A stretch of DNA of 64,000 nt, taken from assembly GCA_020628165.1 (NCBI GenBank), contig JAHDFM010000005.1, positions 3,981 through 67,980 of the forward strand, written 5' to 3'. This DNA comes from Bdellovibrionales bacterium (GTDB lineage: Bacteria; Bdellovibrionota; Bdellovibrionia; Bdellovibrionales; UBA1609). Under the pieces are notes generated by a model. The model searched no databases, was not told where the DNA came from, and was given only the letters and a program-made list of their open reading frames with translations. Positions 24,754 through 35,257 of the stretch are shown piece by piece. How positions within the stretch are numbered: position 1 is the first letter of the stretch; the number at the start of each line of letters is the position of its first letter. Position numbers and translations under genes: made by a program.

Positions 24754-25701
24754 TTACTTTTGAAACGAAGGGTGAACAGTTCCCTTAAAGCAGTTCATCA
24801 CCCAAGGAAAAGCGTTGGTGACGTAATATCCGTATTGACCATTGACAGTCATGCCATTGCACTCATCGAGATCTCCGGCAGCAGTGTATTCGTAATCATC
24901 TCTAAAGGTGCCGTCATAGTTGCCTCCAGGAAAAGCTCCTTCTCCAGCTTGATTGGTTCTTGCACCAGCTCTTAAAGTGTATCCTGAAACTGCCAGGCGA
25001 ATAGAACCACCGTCGTCAAAATAGGGTCCATAAATTGGGTATCCATCAGCAGCAAAACCAATCACGCCAGATGCCACGGTCGGACTGCTGTTATCAAAAA
25101 GAGCCAGTGGGTTGCCATGATAGTGATAGGCACCATCGGGTTGAGTGTGGGCATTGTGTGAGTCTGTCCCAAAATCATTTCCGGCAAACATGGGGTCGTA
25201 TCGCCAAGGTGTGGTGATCACATTGCAGCCAATTTTTTCTGAGCCAAGAGGGTCTGGGCCCACTCCGTAGCAGGCCGCGGGCAATATATCCAGTTTAGCA
25301 CCATTGAGAAAAATTCCGTTGTCGTAAGTCAGTGTTAGATTTGTATTTGAGCCGGCTGGGGTTGGGTTCCGAGTCAAAGTGTAACTTTGAATGACGGGGC
25401 CTAAATTATTTGCAAAACCAGCACCATCATTCACATCATGATTTGGTATGCCATTAGAGCTAATAAAACACTGTGTGGCAGTGTTGGTGATCACCGTACT
25501 GCCAGAAAAGTTTAAGGATCTGTTAACATCTGTGATATTAGAGACGAAATTACCAGTGTACTCCATGCAGTCGCCACTGGTATTGGTGAGTTCAACATCA
25601 TTGATGAGGGTTGGGTTTGTGGACGAGTTGTCGTCACTGCTCTCACTAACAGAACAAGCTACAGTGGAGAGACAAATAATAACTAGTGTTAATCTAAAAA
25701 T
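24754..25701 (-). CDS. YHYH-domain lipoprotein, probable AUU start
   Basis: About 315 residues. The YHYH domain is clear: THNAHTQPDGAYHYHG-like text here reads HNAHTQPDGAYHYHGNP, followed by IGFAADGYPIYGPYFDD and DLDECNGMTVNGQYGYYVT. The only canonical start is ATG 25566, but upstream in frame, after TGA 25712-25714, comes a perfect lipoprotein signal (M)FRLTLVIICLSTVAC-SVSESS with no ATG, GTG or TTG. A GAAGGG at 25715-25710 lies 8 nt before ATT 25701. I take ATT as start. YHYH proteins are exported and usually of unknown function; the paired His suggest metal binding. Confidence 0.8.
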   Translation of the reverse strand: MFRLTLVIICLSTVACSVSESSDDNSSTNPTLINDVELTNTSGDCMEYTGNFVSNITDVNRSLNFSGSTVITNTATQCFISSNGIPNHDVNDGAGFANNLGPVIQSYTLTRNPTPAGSNTNLTLTYDNGIFLNGAKLDILPAACYGVGPDPLGSEKIGCNVITTPWRYDPMFAGNDFGTDSHNAHTQPDGAYHYHGNPLALFDNSSPTVASGVIGFAADGYPIYGPYFDDGGSIRLAVSGYTLRAGARTNQAGEGAFPGGNYDGTFRDDYEYTAAGDLDECNGMTVNGQYGYYVTNAFPWVMNCFKGTVHPSFQK

Positions 25702-25759
25702 AAAGAACGCCCTTCAGTAAGTGTTGTACAACTAAACTTATATAGTTACTATCGGACGA

Positions 25760-26146
25760 ATGATAAAAACTTTAATAATATTCATTGTGATTGCCTGCAA
25801 TTGTTTTACTTTTGCTCATTATAAAACAAATCCAAAAGCAGTTCAGATTGAATTTAAAAATGGTTCAAATTGGAACGACAAAGTCAGTTATAAAAAACAA
25901 AAACACATTGGTGAGCACATACAATTTTTAAAAGAACTCTTTCGCAAAAAAAATATATTAATGAACTATGTTTTTGAGGAGTCTGGGCATTCGGTAGTTC
26001 TAATGCAAGGAATGAACTTAAAAGAGCTCACTCAAACTTTACAAACGAATAAGGCCGTTAAAGACAAAGTGATTGATTACGTGCTAAAACCAGTCAATGT
26101 GACCATGTTTGGTCAGTTGCGAAAAAAAGAACACAAACACAAATAG
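25760..26146 (+). CDS. Exported YciI-like small protein
   Basis: 128 residues with a signal peptide (MIKTLIIFIVIACNCFTFAH). The mature part (IGEHIQFLKELFRKKNILM, SVVLMQGMNLKELTQTLQTN, YVLKPVNVTMFGQL) resembles the ferredoxin-like YciI/YCII fold, which is usually cytosolic and of unclear function; export is unusual. Ends in a basic His/Lys tail (KKEHKHK). It lies 18 bp before the TolC-like gene and may be co-transcribed with the efflux genes. Confidence 0.55.
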   Translation: MIKTLIIFIVIACNCFTFAHYKTNPKAVQIEFKNGSNWNDKVSYKKQKHIGEHIQFLKELFRKKNILMNYVFEESGHSVVLMQGMNLKELTQTLQTNKAVKDKVIDYVLKPVNVTMFGQLRKKEHKHK

Positions 26147-26164: not shown

Positions 26165-27610
26165 ATGATGAAATATTTAGCGTTATACATTTTTTTATTA
26201 AGCAACTGGTCAGGTTATGTCTTTGCTAAAGAAGCTTTTTTAATTGATCAGTTTTTAAAAGAGGTTCAAAAAAACTCAATTTTATATCAGCAAACATTCA
26301 TTGAAAACTCGGCAGCCAATGTAAACAGTTCATTAAGTCTCAATGACTTTAACTGGTCAGGGTTGGTGAGTTACAATTATTTTGATGTGGAAGAAGTAGC
26401 ATTTTCACCGTTCTCTCCAGAGAAGATTACAAAATCGACGTACAACTTAAATGTGACCAAAAAATGGGAGCAGGGGCTCACCTCAAGCCTTAATTACACC
26501 TTGGTTGATAATCTCACCGACTATCCTATGGGCACTCAACTAGATTATTTGCAACCTGATCTCAATCTCACCTTGTCAACAGACTTAGTCCAAGATGTCT
26601 TTTATCGCAAATCTCAAGCTCAAGTGGATCAAGTGAACTCAACATTAACCCTCAATACTTTACAGATGCGACAAAAACAAAAAGAAATCTTAGTGGGGTC
26701 TTTGTTAAGGCTTGCAAACACCCTAGCTTCTGAGGTTCAGTTAGATTCACAACAACAACTCTGTCAGGAGTTAAAATCGCAAGTTAATAAATTATATAAT
26801 AAATCAAGGTCAGGCATTGTCAGTCAAAGAGACTATCTCTTAAGCCTTAAAAAGAAAAACAACTGCTTTGTACAAATCAATACTATAGATTCACAGATTA
26901 AGACATCGGCGGCTTCTTTCCGAGTTGATTATGGGCTCAGCTACGCGGATTACAAAAACATCAGTTTGAGTGCTGTCACGGATAAAGTGATTCCACTCTA
27001 TCAGCAACAAAAACAAACGGGGCAAGAAACCTTTGATGTTAACGCCACATTAAATATGCGCAGACTCACGCAAGAGCTTGAGTCCGTCACACAGCAAATT
27101 AAAAGATTGGGTGCTGAAAGTAAACCTGCTGTGAATTTGTCATTAACTCTAGGGGCAAAGGGGTTAGATAATGACTTTGATTCGTCTCACGAGGATGTCA
27201 GTGAATTAAGTAACCCATATGTCTCTGGGACAGTGTCTGTGGATCTTCCCTTCACCAACAAGCGAAAAGCGGACCAGTTAAAGGCTATGAGCTTGCAGAA
27301 GCAGTTGCTGGATAAAAAAATAAAGGTTGAAAAAACATCTCAGACTGAAAACTTTAATAATTTGAAAGAGCGCATAGAGTTGCAGCTTCAAAACTTAGAG
27401 CTTGTCGATAAAAACATAGGTTATTCTAAGTCAGCTCTAAGAGTTGCTACGAAAGACTTTAATAACGGTCGCATAGACTTTTTGTCTTTGTCTGAGTTTC
27501 AATCACAGTTAATTGAAAGTGAGGTAGAGCTGGTCGCCGTTCATCTCAACTTGATAGTAGATATCATATCTTATCTCGATCATTATAATTTCTTTGAAAG
27601 GTACTATTGA
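26165..27610 (+). CDS. TolC-family outer-membrane efflux protein
   Basis: 481 residues with a signal peptide (MMKYLALYIFLLSNWSGYVFA). The two long helical halves and intervening strands of the TolC/OEP fold are visible (NSTLTLNTLQMRQKQKEILV, GIVSQRDYLLSLKKK, LRVATKDFNNGRIDFLSLSE). The last motif is the classic OEP pattern. It forms the outer-membrane channel of tripartite export systems. Stop overlaps the RND gene start (TGATG), so the two are coupled. No periplasmic adaptor gene is present in this operon. Confidence 0.88.
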   Translation: MMKYLALYIFLLSNWSGYVFAKEAFLIDQFLKEVQKNSILYQQTFIENSAANVNSSLSLNDFNWSGLVSYNYFDVEEVAFSPFSPEKITKSTYNLNVTKKWEQGLTSSLNYTLVDNLTDYPMGTQLDYLQPDLNLTLSTDLVQDVFYRKSQAQVDQVNSTLTLNTLQMRQKQKEILVGSLLRLANTLASEVQLDSQQQLCQELKSQVNKLYNKSRSGIVSQRDYLLSLKKKNNCFVQINTIDSQIKTSAASFRVDYGLSYADYKNISLSAVTDKVIPLYQQQKQTGQETFDVNATLNMRRLTQELESVTQQIKRLGAESKPAVNLSLTLGAKGLDNDFDSSHEDVSELSNPYVSGTVSVDLPFTNKRKADQLKAMSLQKQLLDKKIKVEKTSQTENFNNLKERIELQLQNLELVDKNIGYSKSALRVATKDFNNGRIDFLSLSEFQSQLIESEVELVAVHLNLIVDIISYLDHYNFFERYY

Positions 27611-30600
27611 TGGCATTTTTTAACTGGCTTTTTAAAAACACATTATTTATTCATTATTTGACTTTAGTTATTGTTATTGTGGGAATTGCATCCTTGCTGC
27701 GCATGAAGAAAGAGGCTCGCCCAAATGTGAACTTTAACAGAGCCTTCATACAAGCCATCTATCCGGGAGCTTCACCCAGTGATATTGAAGAACTTGTCAT
27801 AGATCCCATTGAAGAAAAAATATCTGAGGTTGACGGGGTTGAGGACTTTCGTTCTGTGTCTTATCAGGGAGCAGGTTCAATCTCAGTGAAGATAGACGAG
27901 GACGTCCCCAGTGTAGATAAAATTGTCGATGATGTTAGGCAAAAGGTCTCTGAGGTTAAAGACCTGCCTCAAACCGTAGAAAACCCAATAGTTTCTGAGG
28001 CGAAAGCCATCAACATACCTATAGTGGCCATCGCTCTCTACGGAAAGCTCTCTCCATTTGATATGAAGTTAGAAGTCGAAAAACTAAAAAGTTTTTTGAC
28101 CAAAATACCTGGCGTTCAAAAGGTGTCTACCGAAGGCATTGAAGACTTACAGTTGCAACTCATGGCAAACCCTGAGTTCTTAAATAAATACGATGTGACC
28201 CTGTTAGAGCTTGATCAAGCTATCAATCGTTGGACAAAAGAACTGCCTGGCGGATTGTTGCAAGGGCAACGTTTTTCAAACAATTTAACTGTTGGTGAAA
28301 ATTACGACACGGTCGAAAGCATTAAAGGGTTCATCCTTAGAAGTAATGACTCTGGTAAAAAGGTGCGAGTTTCTCAGCTAGCTAATGTTGATTATGAAAT
28401 GGAGCGTTCAAGCATTAAAAATTTGTACCGCTCAGACAGTGCTGTGACTTTAACAGTTATCAAGAAGCCAACTCATGACATTGTGAAAACGGTCAACCTT
28501 GTAAAAGACGGCATGAAACAATATAAAAATAATTTGCCTGAAGGTTTGAGCTACGAGATCTACAATGACCAAGCCACACGTGTAAACAATCGATTGAATA
28601 CGGTTTTTCAAAACGCTATTTTTGGGCTTATATTAGTTTTGATATTACTCATTCTCTTTTTAGATGTGCGCTCCGCCATTGTGACTACAATAGGTATACC
28701 TGTTGCTTTGCTTGGTGGAATCTTTCTACTTTACATATACGGCAGCACCATGAACTCTTTGGTTCTTGTTGGTATGATTGTGGTGCTTGGAATGTTAGTG
28801 GATGACGCCATTGTGGTGTGTGAAAATATATATTATTACGTTGAACAAGGGATTGAGCCGCAACAGGCTGCTCTGCAAGGTGTGCTTGAAATTGGCAAGC
28901 CTGTGGTTGCAACTGTGCTCACCACGGTGATGGCCTTTATGCCCGTACTATTTATGAAAGGAATCATGGGGCAATTCATCAGTGTCATACCTCTGACGGT
29001 GATTTTGCTTTTGTGTGTGTCTTTGTTTGAGGCTTTATTAATATTGCCGGTGCACGCTAGTGAAATTATGAAAGTCTCACACAAGCCTAAGAAAAATTTT
29101 TTCAAGCGCTTTGAAAATCTCTATACTCAGTATCTTAATTTTTCTACCGCACGTTTAAAAAACATTGGGATGACAGTTGTACTGGTTCTAGTTTTTGTTG
29201 TTTCAGGAGCTCAAGGTAAAAAACTTTTTGACCGATTTACACTTTTTCCTGCAACTGGTTTAGAAGGCGTGAGCATTCGTGTTGAGCTAGAAAAAAACAC
29301 ATCTGTGATTGAAACCACTGAAAAAATAAAAATCCTCAACACCATGTTAGAGGAAGTAGCAGGAGACGATTTTGAAGACTTCACATCAACCATTGGGAGT
29401 GTGAGGACTGGGGGAGCAACTGGCAGTCAACAAATCGCTTCACATCTTGGGCAGGTCGGTATTTTCTTTACATCAGATCCAACTTTTTTGTTCAGAGAAA
29501 AATCGGTGTTAAAAAAAATCAAAGAACAAACAAACATATTTGCTGAAAAATACGGTGCTAAAACATCACTTACCATCGATCGACCAGGACCACCTGTTGG
29601 CAAACCCATCCAGTTTGAAATTGCTTCTCGAGATATTGACGTGGGTTATGATATAGCTCAAGAGATTCAAAATAAGTTAGGTGAAATCGACGGAGTGGTC
29701 AGCATTGAAAATGATCTCGATGGCGACAGTGTCAACTACCGCTATAAAATTGATAACGAAAGGGCGACAGCTCAAGGCATAAGCCCACAAGAGGTTGCTG
29801 CCACAATATTTATGGCAAGCACGGGTAAAGTGGCCACAGAAATTCTAAAGAACAATGAAAAGGTGGAAGTCTTAGTGAGTGTTGATCAGAGCAATGATCT
29901 TTCTTACAAAGATATTTTAAAGTTAAAAATAAGAAATAAATACGGGCAGTCCATTTTGTTAAGTAATTTTGTTACAATTGCCGAAGAAAAGGGGCCATCA
30001 ACCATTCAACGATTAGATGGTGTGCGCACAGTGTCTGTTTTTGCTGAGGTAGAAGAAAATAAAATTACGGGCAAAGAGGCCAATAAGCAAGTCATGCCAA
30101 CGGTGATGCAGCTTCAAGAAAAATATCCCAACGTTAAAATCAATTTTGGTGGAGGAGCTAAAAGGAGAATGGAAACTCTGCAAGAAACGCTCTTTTTGTT
30201 TATCTTTTCCATCATAGTGATTTTTATGATCATTAGTGTGACTTTCAACTCTTTTATTTATCCGTTCTTAGTTCTGCTCACAATTCCAATGGGGCTTTGT
30301 GGAGTTGTGTGGGCTTTAACTTTGCACGGAAAGCCTTTCACTTTGATGGGAATCATAGGAGTTATTGGTCTTTCCGGAGTTGTTGTTAATATATCTATTA
30401 TTTTAATGAAGTTTATGCAGGAAAACATATCCAAAGATAAACTATTCAAAGATGCCGTTAAAAATGCCAGTGTTCGAAGATTGAGGCCGATTGTGGTGAC
30501 CACTATCACTACAATCATTGGGTTGTTGCCAACAATGTACGGCTTGGGTGGTGTAGATTCCTTTGTGCAACCACTGGCATTGGTTATGGGCTGGGGCCTT

Positions 30601-30678
30601 TTTGGAGCAACCTTACTTTCTCTATTGTTTTTGCCGTCAGTGATTTCATTGTTTTCCATATTAAAGCCTAGGTCCTGA
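27610..30678 (+). CDS. RND family efflux transporter permease
   Basis: 1022 residues from ATG 27610 (TTG 27607 is also in frame). Standard RND length and layout: first span (about 12-28), periplasmic porter domain (PGASPSDIEELVIDPIEEKI), a cluster of spans with the proton-relay block (GMIVVLGMLVDDAIVVCENI, two Asp), a second periplasmic loop, and a second span cluster (LMGIIGVIGLSGVVVNISII). This fits HAE1/AcrB-type or AcrB-like lipid or drug export rather than metal CzcA, which would show different charged residues. Works with the coupled TolC. Confidence 0.93.
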   Translation: MAFFNWLFKNTLFIHYLTLVIVIVGIASLLRMKKEARPNVNFNRAFIQAIYPGASPSDIEELVIDPIEEKISEVDGVEDFRSVSYQGAGSISVKIDEDVPSVDKIVDDVRQKVSEVKDLPQTVENPIVSEAKAINIPIVAIALYGKLSPFDMKLEVEKLKSFLTKIPGVQKVSTEGIEDLQLQLMANPEFLNKYDVTLLELDQAINRWTKELPGGLLQGQRFSNNLTVGENYDTVESIKGFILRSNDSGKKVRVSQLANVDYEMERSSIKNLYRSDSAVTLTVIKKPTHDIVKTVNLVKDGMKQYKNNLPEGLSYEIYNDQATRVNNRLNTVFQNAIFGLILVLILLILFLDVRSAIVTTIGIPVALLGGIFLLYIYGSTMNSLVLVGMIVVLGMLVDDAIVVCENIYYYVEQGIEPQQAALQGVLEIGKPVVATVLTTVMAFMPVLFMKGIMGQFISVIPLTVILLLCVSLFEALLILPVHASEIMKVSHKPKKNFFKRFENLYTQYLNFSTARLKNIGMTVVLVLVFVVSGAQGKKLFDRFTLFPATGLEGVSIRVELEKNTSVIETTEKIKILNTMLEEVAGDDFEDFTSTIGSVRTGGATGSQQIASHLGQVGIFFTSDPTFLFREKSVLKKIKEQTNIFAEKYGAKTSLTIDRPGPPVGKPIQFEIASRDIDVGYDIAQEIQNKLGEIDGVVSIENDLDGDSVNYRYKIDNERATAQGISPQEVAATIFMASTGKVATEILKNNEKVEVLVSVDQSNDLSYKDILKLKIRNKYGQSILLSNFVTIAEEKGPSTIQRLDGVRTVSVFAEVEENKITGKEANKQVMPTVMQLQEKYPNVKINFGGGAKRRMETLQETLFLFIFSIIVIFMIISVTFNSFIYPFLVLLTIPMGLCGVVWALTLHGKPFTLMGIIGVIGLSGVVVNISIILMKFMQENISKDKLFKDAVKNASVRRLRPIVVTTITTIIGLLPTMYGLGGVDSFVQPLALVMGWGLFGATLLSLLFLPSVISLFSILKPRS

Positions 30679-32480: not shown

Positions 32481-33833
32481 ATGGATCAACACAATAAAGA
32501 CCTGCCAGACTTGCTTTTTAAAGAGAAGTTAGATGCTTATTCTGAAAGTTTTTGTGCAGCCAAGTGGTACAATTCAACCATCTGGTTAGGGGCGGGCCAA
32601 ACGACATCTTGTCACCATCCCCCGAGTCACAAGGTGCCGAGCAAAGTGGTTAAAAATCCAAAGCTTCTCCATAATACCAAAGAAAAAAAACACGACCGCA
32701 AACTCATGCTAAAAGGTAAGCGCCCCAAAGGTTGTGATTATTGTTGGAAGGTGCAAGATCAAGGCGCCGGTGCTATCCCTGACCGAGTTTACAAAAGTCA
32801 TATCTACACGGATGAGGAGCTTCAACAGGCCTTTAAAACACCGGTGAGACAAGACGTTGCTTTAAAAACCTTAGAGATCAGTTTTGATCGCACTTGCAAT
32901 TTTGCTTGTTCTTACTGTAACCCTGGGTTTAGTACAACTTGGGTTAAAGACATTCAAAACGCTGGACCTTACAAAAATATTAACAGCGATGATCGCCACC
33001 ATTTCACCAGCACGCAACCTCAAGCCCAAGTTTATGAAGTTGGAAATAATCCGTTGGTGAATTCATTTTGGCAGTGGTGGGATTTAGAACTTAAAAACAC
33101 CCTCAAAGAATTACGAGTGACAGGCGGAGAGCCAACCATGAGCCCTGAGCTATGGGTTCTTTTCAAAAAGCTAAAATCGTGTTTTGAATCCGGCGAGCTC
33201 AATAAAGACTTCGTACTCAGTGTGAACACGAACCTTGGTATGAAAGAAGCTTTTTTTCAAAAATTAAAATCTCATTTGAGCCAGTTTTCCAATGTTGAGA
33301 TTTATACAAGCTGTGAAGCTCTTGGGCAACAGGCCGAGTACATTCGCGATGGTTTAAATTACAATCTCTGGCGCGAGCGACTGATTGAGCTTGCTAAAGA
33401 CAATAACCTTAGAATGGTGAACGTCATGTGTACGATCAATGCTCTTTGTTTAGAGTCTTTGCCTCAGTTTTTATTAGATTTAAGTGATTTGAGAAAGAGT
33501 TATGGTTCTTACAACAAGTTAACTTTTACTCTCAATATATTGCGATTTCCTTCTTTTCAGTCCTGTCGAATACTTCCACAAGAAGTTAAGGTGGGTTTTG
33601 CAGATAAGCTCAGTGAAATGCTATTAAATCATAAAAATGACTTCTTTCCTCATGAGCAATCTCACATACAGCGCTTAATCAATTATCTCAAAATAGATGA
33701 AGACGACGATTTTTCAATTGAGCAGCAGGATTTTAAAAAGTTTTTTCAGCAGTATGACCTTCGTAGGGGCAAAAGTTTCGAAAACACATTTTCTGGACCT
33801 TTGCTTGATTTTTTTCATGGGATTGAAGTGTGA
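32481..33833 (+). CDS. Twitch-domain radical SAM protein (first of a pair)
   Basis: 450 residues. Radical SAM motif CNFACSYC (about residues 140-147, CxxxCxxC) following LEISFDRT, and RVTGGEPTMSPE, the SAM-binding GGE step. The N-terminal half has a distinctive Cys/His set, FCAAKWYNST then SCHHPPSH and CDYCWKVQD, that may bind a second cluster or zinc. The C-terminal part is a twitch-like region. Twitch radical SAM proteins modify peptides or proteins in unknown ways. It overlaps the next gene by GTGA. No small peptide substrate gene was found beside it. Confidence 0.85.
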   Translation: MDQHNKDLPDLLFKEKLDAYSESFCAAKWYNSTIWLGAGQTTSCHHPPSHKVPSKVVKNPKLLHNTKEKKHDRKLMLKGKRPKGCDYCWKVQDQGAGAIPDRVYKSHIYTDEELQQAFKTPVRQDVALKTLEISFDRTCNFACSYCNPGFSTTWVKDIQNAGPYKNINSDDRHHFTSTQPQAQVYEVGNNPLVNSFWQWWDLELKNTLKELRVTGGEPTMSPELWVLFKKLKSCFESGELNKDFVLSVNTNLGMKEAFFQKLKSHLSQFSNVEIYTSCEALGQQAEYIRDGLNYNLWRERLIELAKDNNLRMVNVMCTINALCLESLPQFLLDLSDLRKSYGSYNKLTFTLNILRFPSFQSCRILPQEVKVGFADKLSEMLLNHKNDFFPHEQSHIQRLINYLKIDEDDDFSIEQQDFKKFFQQYDLRRGKSFENTFSGPLLDFFHGIEV

Positions 33834-35257
33834 AAGATCAACTGGCTGACACTCAAAAAAAACTTTCTAAAGTTTCTAGTACTTTTTGTTTAGCTAAATG
33901 GTATCACTTAAGCTTACATCTACACCTTGGCCACAATCATTCTTGCCATCATCCAAACACACATAAACTTTCGTTAAATAAAATAAAAAAAGACAAAGCG
34001 TGTTTACACAACACGGTTCCAAAAGTAAAAGCAAGACAAGAAATGCTTCAAGGCAAACGGCCGTCTGAGTGCAGTTACTGTTGGAATGTCGAAGACACTG
34101 GTGGAGTGAGCGATCGCATAGTAAAATCGAGCAGTCACTGGGCACAGCCTTATTTACAACAAGCCTTAACAGATGAAGAAAAGGTTCTTCCCAAATATTT
34201 AGAAGTGAGTTTCAGTCATAGCTGCAATTTAAAGTGTTCGTATTGTGACCCGAGGCTGTCCAGTGCTTGGGAAAAAGAAATCAAGCAGCACGGGCCTTAC
34301 TTGCTAAGCCGTATTTACAATGGCACAGGTCTTTTCTCATTTGACGGTAAAAACCCGTGGCCGATGGACAAAGTGAACCCCTACGTCGAAGCTTTCTGGG
34401 ATTGGTTGCCGGATGTCTTTCCACAACTACATGTTTTGCGAGTAACAGGGGGAGAGCCTTTGTTGAGTCGGGACACCTATAAACTGTTGCAGTATGTTTA
34501 CGAGAACAAAAACACACAACTAGAACTTGCGGTCAATTCAAACTTGTGTGTGCCTGAAAAAACACTTACAAATTTCATGCAGCAGATTCAAAGATTTAAA
34601 AAAAACAAGCATGTCAAGAAAGTGCAAATATTCACTAGTGTGGACAGTTGGGGGGCACAGGCCGATTACACTCGCCATGGTTTAAACTTTCAGACCTTTT
34701 GGGGCAATCTTATTCAATTTCTCACAGAACTTCCAGATGTGGATGTGCATATTATGTCGACCTATAATATCTTATCGGTGCCTCAATTTCCCAAACTCAT
34801 TCAAAATTTTTTAGATCTCAAAAAAAAGGTTCAAGCAACTAGGCAAGGTGAATTCACTTTAGATATAAATCACCTTGTGAACCCTAAACACCAGAGTGTT
34901 TTATTGCTACCGAAAGAAATTACTTTAACCAGTCTACAAACAGCCTTAAGAACAGTTAAGGGGTGCGGTGCTTTCAACACTCAAGACTTACAGTTAAAAA
35001 TTCAAAGAATAGCAGACTACGTTGAACAAACTCATCTTGAAGACCTTGAAACCTATCAAGCTGATTTTTACAAGTTCTTTACTCAACATGATATGAGACG
35101 AGCAACGAATATTAATAAAACTTTTCCAGAGCTAAAAGAGTTTTGGTCTTATTGTAAAAAAAAGGCTGAAAACTCACCAAAGGGACCAAGCATAAACATA
35201 AAACACAAACTGGCTTGGCGGGCTTTGCAAGCACAAAAAATATTAACTCGTTATTAA
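33830..35257 (+). CDS. Twitch-domain radical SAM protein (second of a pair)
   Basis: 475 residues from GTG 33830, which overlaps the preceding stop. It is paralogous to the first: FCLAKWYHLSLHLHLGHNHS, SCHHPNTHK and CSYCWNVED in the N-terminal half, CNLKCSYCDP as the radical SAM motif (about residue 133), and RVTGGEPLLSR. The C-terminus is longer and ends in a basic helix (KHKLAWRALQAQKILTRY). The pair arose by duplication or works as a heteromer. It probably uses a peptide or protein substrate that is encoded elsewhere. Confidence 0.85.
   Translation: MKDQLADTQKKLSKVSSTFCLAKWYHLSLHLHLGHNHSCHHPNTHKLSLNKIKKDKACLHNTVPKVKARQEMLQGKRPSECSYCWNVEDTGGVSDRIVKSSSHWAQPYLQQALTDEEKVLPKYLEVSFSHSCNLKCSYCDPRLSSAWEKEIKQHGPYLLSRIYNGTGLFSFDGKNPWPMDKVNPYVEAFWDWLPDVFPQLHVLRVTGGEPLLSRDTYKLLQYVYENKNTQLELAVNSNLCVPEKTLTNFMQQIQRFKKNKHVKKVQIFTSVDSWGAQADYTRHGLNFQTFWGNLIQFLTELPDVDVHIMSTYNILSVPQFPKLIQNFLDLKKKVQATRQGEFTLDINHLVNPKHQSVLLLPKEITLTSLQTALRTVKGCGAFNTQDLQLKIQRIADYVEQTHLEDLETYQADFYKFFTQHDMRRATNINKTFPELKEFWSYCKKKAENSPKGPSINIKHKLAWRALQAQKILTRY

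Follow-up and report, generated by a model that had tools for sequence, protein, structure and literature searches.

A YHYH-family lipoprotein gene of a Bdellovibrionales bacterium with AUU as its best candidate start codon

Here we describe a gene for a YHYH-family lipoprotein in a Bdellovibrionales bacterium (assembly GCA_020628165.1, contig JAHDFM010000005.1), in which no other start candidate comes close to ATT 25701, judged from the sequence by the position of the Shine–Dalgarno site, the length of the signal peptide and the start of the closest orthologue. All positions are those of the window, the whole stretch of 64,000 nucleotides that was analysed. This is an ordinary gene with a rare start codon of a known kind. 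We put the chance that AUU 25701 is a working start at about even, a reading for which we infer both initiation at this codon and the presence of ATT in the real genome.

The YHYH gene and its signal peptide

The minus-strand frame (25713–24754) is open for 319 codons, ends in TAA and matches the YHYH profile of Pfam (PF14240) from end to end (positions 1–193 of 193; E = 1.1e-47; 162.9 bits vs a cut-off of 25), which makes it a member of that family. No ATG, GTG or TTG occurs in frame between ATG 25566 and the TGA that bounds the frame upstream; the original prediction had placed this stop at 25714–25712, two bases too low, and it lies at 25716–25714. From there the frame reads AGG GCG TTC TTT, then ATT (25701–25699) and TTT AGA TTA ACA CTA GTT ATT ATT TGT CTC TCC ACT GTA GCT, and reaches TGT at 25656–25654 (Table 1). 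Directly after the stop, the N-terminus of the frame (RAFFIFRLTLVIICLSTVAC...) begins with a short charged segment and continues through a hydrophobic stretch to the lipobox Cys, encoded by this TGT. The in-frame lipoprotein signal that had been noticed upstream of ATG 25566 (FRLTLVIICLSTVAC), with no ATG, GTG or TTG to head it, was thus found in the sequence as described. With the bacterial lipoprotein pattern (n-region charge, hydrophobic stretch, lipobox Cys) as our guide in place of a signal-peptide predictor, FRLTLVIICLSTVA followed by Cys conforms, the lipobox having T at position −3, which is less usual than L. The product looks like an exported lipoprotein on this pattern.

Table 1. 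Features of the YHYH gene region, in positions of the window.
Feature	Position	Strand	Basis or remark
YHYH-family lipoprotein gene	24754..25701	−	315 residues + stop if read from ATT 25701; Pfam and orthologue
First canonical in-frame ATG, internal Met	25564..25566	−	Conserved block NDVELTNxSGDC-EYTG
Putative lipoprotein signal peptide with lipobox, (I/M)FRLTLVIICLSTVA then C	25654..25701	−	Sequence
ATT, inferred start codon	25699..25701	−	8 nt after GAAGGG; aligns with orthologue ATG
GAAGGG, Shine–Dalgarno-like site	25710..25715	−	−5.8 kcal/mol, 8-nt spacer to ATT 25701
In-frame TGA, upstream bound of frame	25714..25716	−	Sequence
Small exported YciI-like protein, divergent neighbour	25760..26146	+	Adjoins the YHYH gene in G008 and G022 too

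The frame is intact over its 319 codons, and comparison with its closest orthologue (genome G008) gives a dN of 0.21 with dS saturated, a strong constraint at the protein level. The AlphaFold model of the protein has a pLDDT of 36, too poor to be informative, no solved structure related to it by sequence was found, and a promoter scan upstream of the gene returned nothing. Over the 45 codons upstream of ATG 25566 the codon statistics are weak, at 7.9 bits (near the 5th percentile for true coding sequence); codon usage is thereby too weak a guide to the start, and this counts against AUU. An antisense ORF of 90 codons (25448–25720) runs over the signal-peptide region, where its codon score is better than that of the sense frame, and the antisense frame is largely open in the orthologous locus (L024) as well. 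This ORF has no Pfam match, and we take it to be a shadow ORF.

The Shine–Dalgarno site

The GAAGGG reported 8 nt ahead of ATT 25701 is indeed there. By the energy of its duplex with the 16S tail, the tail being assumed canonical, the site beats 57% of the canonical starts on the contig and 89% of random ATGs, and no other codon scored in the frame does better than −3.3 kcal/mol. The gene has in common with established near-cognate starts a properly spaced Shine–Dalgarno site and a conserved N-terminus that no canonical start would fit. It does not have a near-cognate codon kept in relatives together with a strong or extended Shine–Dalgarno site, a combination that is usual in the documented cases and not strictly defining.

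Orthologues and gene neighbourhood

The closest orthologue is a YHYH lipoprotein of Bdellovibrionaceae bacterium UBA1609 (L001/L024, in G008), 70–73% identical (70% over frame residues 8–319 in a profile search) and with the same divergent small gene beside it; it differs in beginning with ATG, not ATT. This ATG heads a lipoprotein signal of 17 residues to the Cys (15 here), lies 64 bp from the divergent gene (58 bp here) and has a Shine–Dalgarno site of the same energy, −5.8 kcal/mol, in the same placement. The agreement in site, neighbour distance and signal length indicates that the ATT stands at the position of the relative's ATG.

The original prediction had left it to an alignment of orthologues to say whether ATT is kept in relatives, or whether all of them begin at the Met of 25566 and have no signal. 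Neither was found: relatives with a readable N-terminus bear an export-like signal headed by ATG, in most cases a lipoprotein signal. Three loci fall outside this comparison, the N-termini of L017 and L021 being unreadable and the start of L032 having been left unread, and L025 has GTG or TTG at its head and no ATG. Behind the signal, L003 has a long linker and L025 a sulfatase domain. Since the relatives with a readable N-terminus have ATG, the ATT is private to this genome. The sulfatase and YHYH domains of L025 (positions 121–2355, G022) are fused in that order (PF00884 + PF14240), and several relatives in Colwellia and Thalassotalea have, by eye, a similar sulfatase–YHYH look.

The gene is patchily distributed, being found in three of the 47 genomes of the family and eight of 369 in the phylum, and it is absent from three other genomes of the genus. 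No second sequence of the species was found, and viral contigs and plasmids gave no match.

Wherever the YHYH gene occurs in the family (three genomes), a YciI-like gene adjoins it, divergently in two and convergently in one (G022), where the homologue has a weak YCII match (E = 7e-4, below the curated cut-off). As the pair is kept together in three genera, the two probably work together, and the YciI-like protein is a probable functional partner for YHYH lipoproteins, which are otherwise unexplained. Elsewhere in the window (26165–30678), an AcrB-type RND pump comes immediately after an outer-membrane efflux protein, and no membrane-fusion gene separates the two. Two related proteins in tandem (32481–35257) have, by eye, CxxxCxxC motifs of the type usual in radical SAM enzymes.

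Frequency of missing starts in this genome

Across the contig (C18, 155 kb), no frame but that of the YHYH gene has a lipoprotein signal ahead of its first canonical start; base-shuffled sequence gave 0.03 such frames per strand. It is also the only lipoprotein with no canonical start in a 511 kb sample of stretches, about 16% of the genome, vs 26 canonical lipoprotein-like ORFs. One generic signal-peptide hit in this sample, on contig C36, was set aside because it is antisense to a gene that we take to be TypA/BipA-like. The ATT start looks like a single event and not a habit of the genome, and with ATG at the same place in relatives it amounts to a one-off change of start codon, real or a sequencing error, rather than a new system.

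Near-cognate initiation at infC and elsewhere

The nearest known parallel is the near-cognate start of infC, the gene for IF3, which is ATT in E. coli and ATC in Streptomyces (PMC5472188). We looked for the infC codon with the best Shine–Dalgarno site in 27 genomes, the nearest of the same genus and the farthest of the same order, and found ATT in 13, ATC in nine, ATA in four and ATG in one; with one genome (G032) ambiguous between ATC and ATG, infC begins with AUU, AUC or AUA in 25–26 of the 27. The bacterium's own infC (L027:1438–1440; contig C36 near 5085) has ATC after AAGGAG with a 7-nt spacer (−9.5 kcal/mol), and its only canonical ATG, three codons after the ATC, has −0.3 kcal/mol. Such a distribution in nearly all the related genomes read suggests that this clade has functional near-cognate initiation. 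Like infC, which has AUC in this genome, the YHYH gene has an AUH codon some 7–8 nt after a Shine–Dalgarno site and no well-placed canonical start. Unlike it, the ATT is private and its site average, whereas the near-cognate start of infC is conserved across the phylum with mostly stronger sites (−7 to −15 kcal/mol in most of the 27 genomes); autoregulation, moreover, is known for infC in E. coli.

The original prediction had overstated the novelty of an AUU start, as such starts occur outside infC. In Staphylococcus aureus, cvfC1 begins with AUU and ccpN with AUA, both with extended Shine–Dalgarno sites, and the AUU of cvfC1 gives about 10% of the expression obtained with AUG (PMC13009471). 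These are near-cognate starts in genes other than infC, as here, but they are proven by ribosome profiling, conserved among relatives and not in exported lipoproteins. The GTC start of Streptomyces sigR (PMC5472188) is likewise a non-canonical start in a single gene, lowering expression through IF3, but it is experimentally shown and regulatory, with another codon and in a cytoplasmic sigma factor. Natural switches from AUG to AUU are rare: a survey of 36 genome groups found one among 61,358 ancestral AUG starts (PMC5622118), or about 0.05 per 3,000 genes. Our literature search for ATT or AUU starts in connection with lipoproteins or signal peptides found no direct precedent.

Origin of the ATT and alternative explanations

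The best explanation, to which we give roughly even chances, is an AUG-to-AUU switch with initiation at AUU 25701. The ancestral ATG of a secreted YHYH lipoprotein would have become ATT in this genome, and the GAAGGG site would position ribosomes such that fMet-tRNA initiates at the AUU, as in near-cognate initiation at infC. The full signal peptide, MFRLTLVIICLSTVA ahead of the Cys, would then be produced at a reduced level, and this output would be expected to be sensitive to IF3. Homology that runs upstream of ATG 25566, an ATG with an equal site in G008 and the intact frame all speak for such a start. Against it stand the absence of ATT from every relative, a Shine–Dalgarno site that is average and not extended, and the rarity of the switch.

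Of the alternatives, an error in the consensus has the most to recommend it, though we consider it unlikely. If the living cell has ATG at 25701–25699, the gene is wholly ordinary; all readable orthologues carry ATG, and the ATT is a single-base departure that has no second case in 511 kb. By our rough estimate, the prior odds of a consensus error in a start codon of a draft genome and of a rare natural switch are similar. However, the genome has a completeness of 99% and little contamination, and the neighbouring frames inspected are intact, giving no indication of a high error rate in the stretch.

We are rather doubtful of a start-loss allele, in which the ATT is real, too little protein is made to be of consequence and the gene is decaying. 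The patchy distribution, including the absence from the three genomes of the genus, would fit such a history, as would the lack of a compensating strong Shine–Dalgarno site at ATT 25701. Yet the 319 codons hold no other lesion and conservation is strong to the C-terminus, and cvfC1 illustrates that an AUU start can still yield appreciable expression (PMC13009471).

It is very improbable that translation begins at TTG 25731 with a longer signal peptide interrupted by TGA 25716, through a nonsense mutation or read-through. This TTG is in frame with the gene and the resulting N-terminus is still signal-like, but the codon has no Shine–Dalgarno site (+0.1 kcal/mol; 97% of starts are stronger), its signal would have 25 residues vs 17 in the orthologue, and a stop would have to be read. 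The most improbable reading of all is a cytoplasmic protein translated from ATG 25566, which has in its favour that it is the first canonical start of the frame, but which has a Shine–Dalgarno energy of only −3.3, would forfeit 45 residues and with them the export signal, as had been foreseen, and is contradicted both by the upstream export-like signals of relatives and by its place directly after a Cys that is invariant across the eight relatives aligned (with ATT as residue 1, this Cys precedes Met 46), so that it would cut into a block (NDVELTNxSGDC, upstream of Met 46) shared with the closest orthologue. A translation start upstream of ATG 25566 is very likely.

The AUU start thus stands as the best candidate, and what has found no support is the idea of its maintained use, given ATG in the orthologues and an average site. 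With no extended Shine–Dalgarno site, low expression or a recent change fits better than a maintained regulatory device. We regard it as quite unlikely that AUU initiation is a kept regulatory feature of the lineage by which IF3 activity would set the surface level of an exported lipoprotein, a link between IF3 and exported proteins that is not documented in the literature searched.

Implications

Start prediction confined to ATG, GTG and TTG would lose 45 residues of the YHYH protein and the export signal with them, so that annotation would list a lipoprotein as a cytoplasmic protein. Should the AUU be real, the gene would add one more rare natural AUG-to-AUU switch, in this case in an exported protein.
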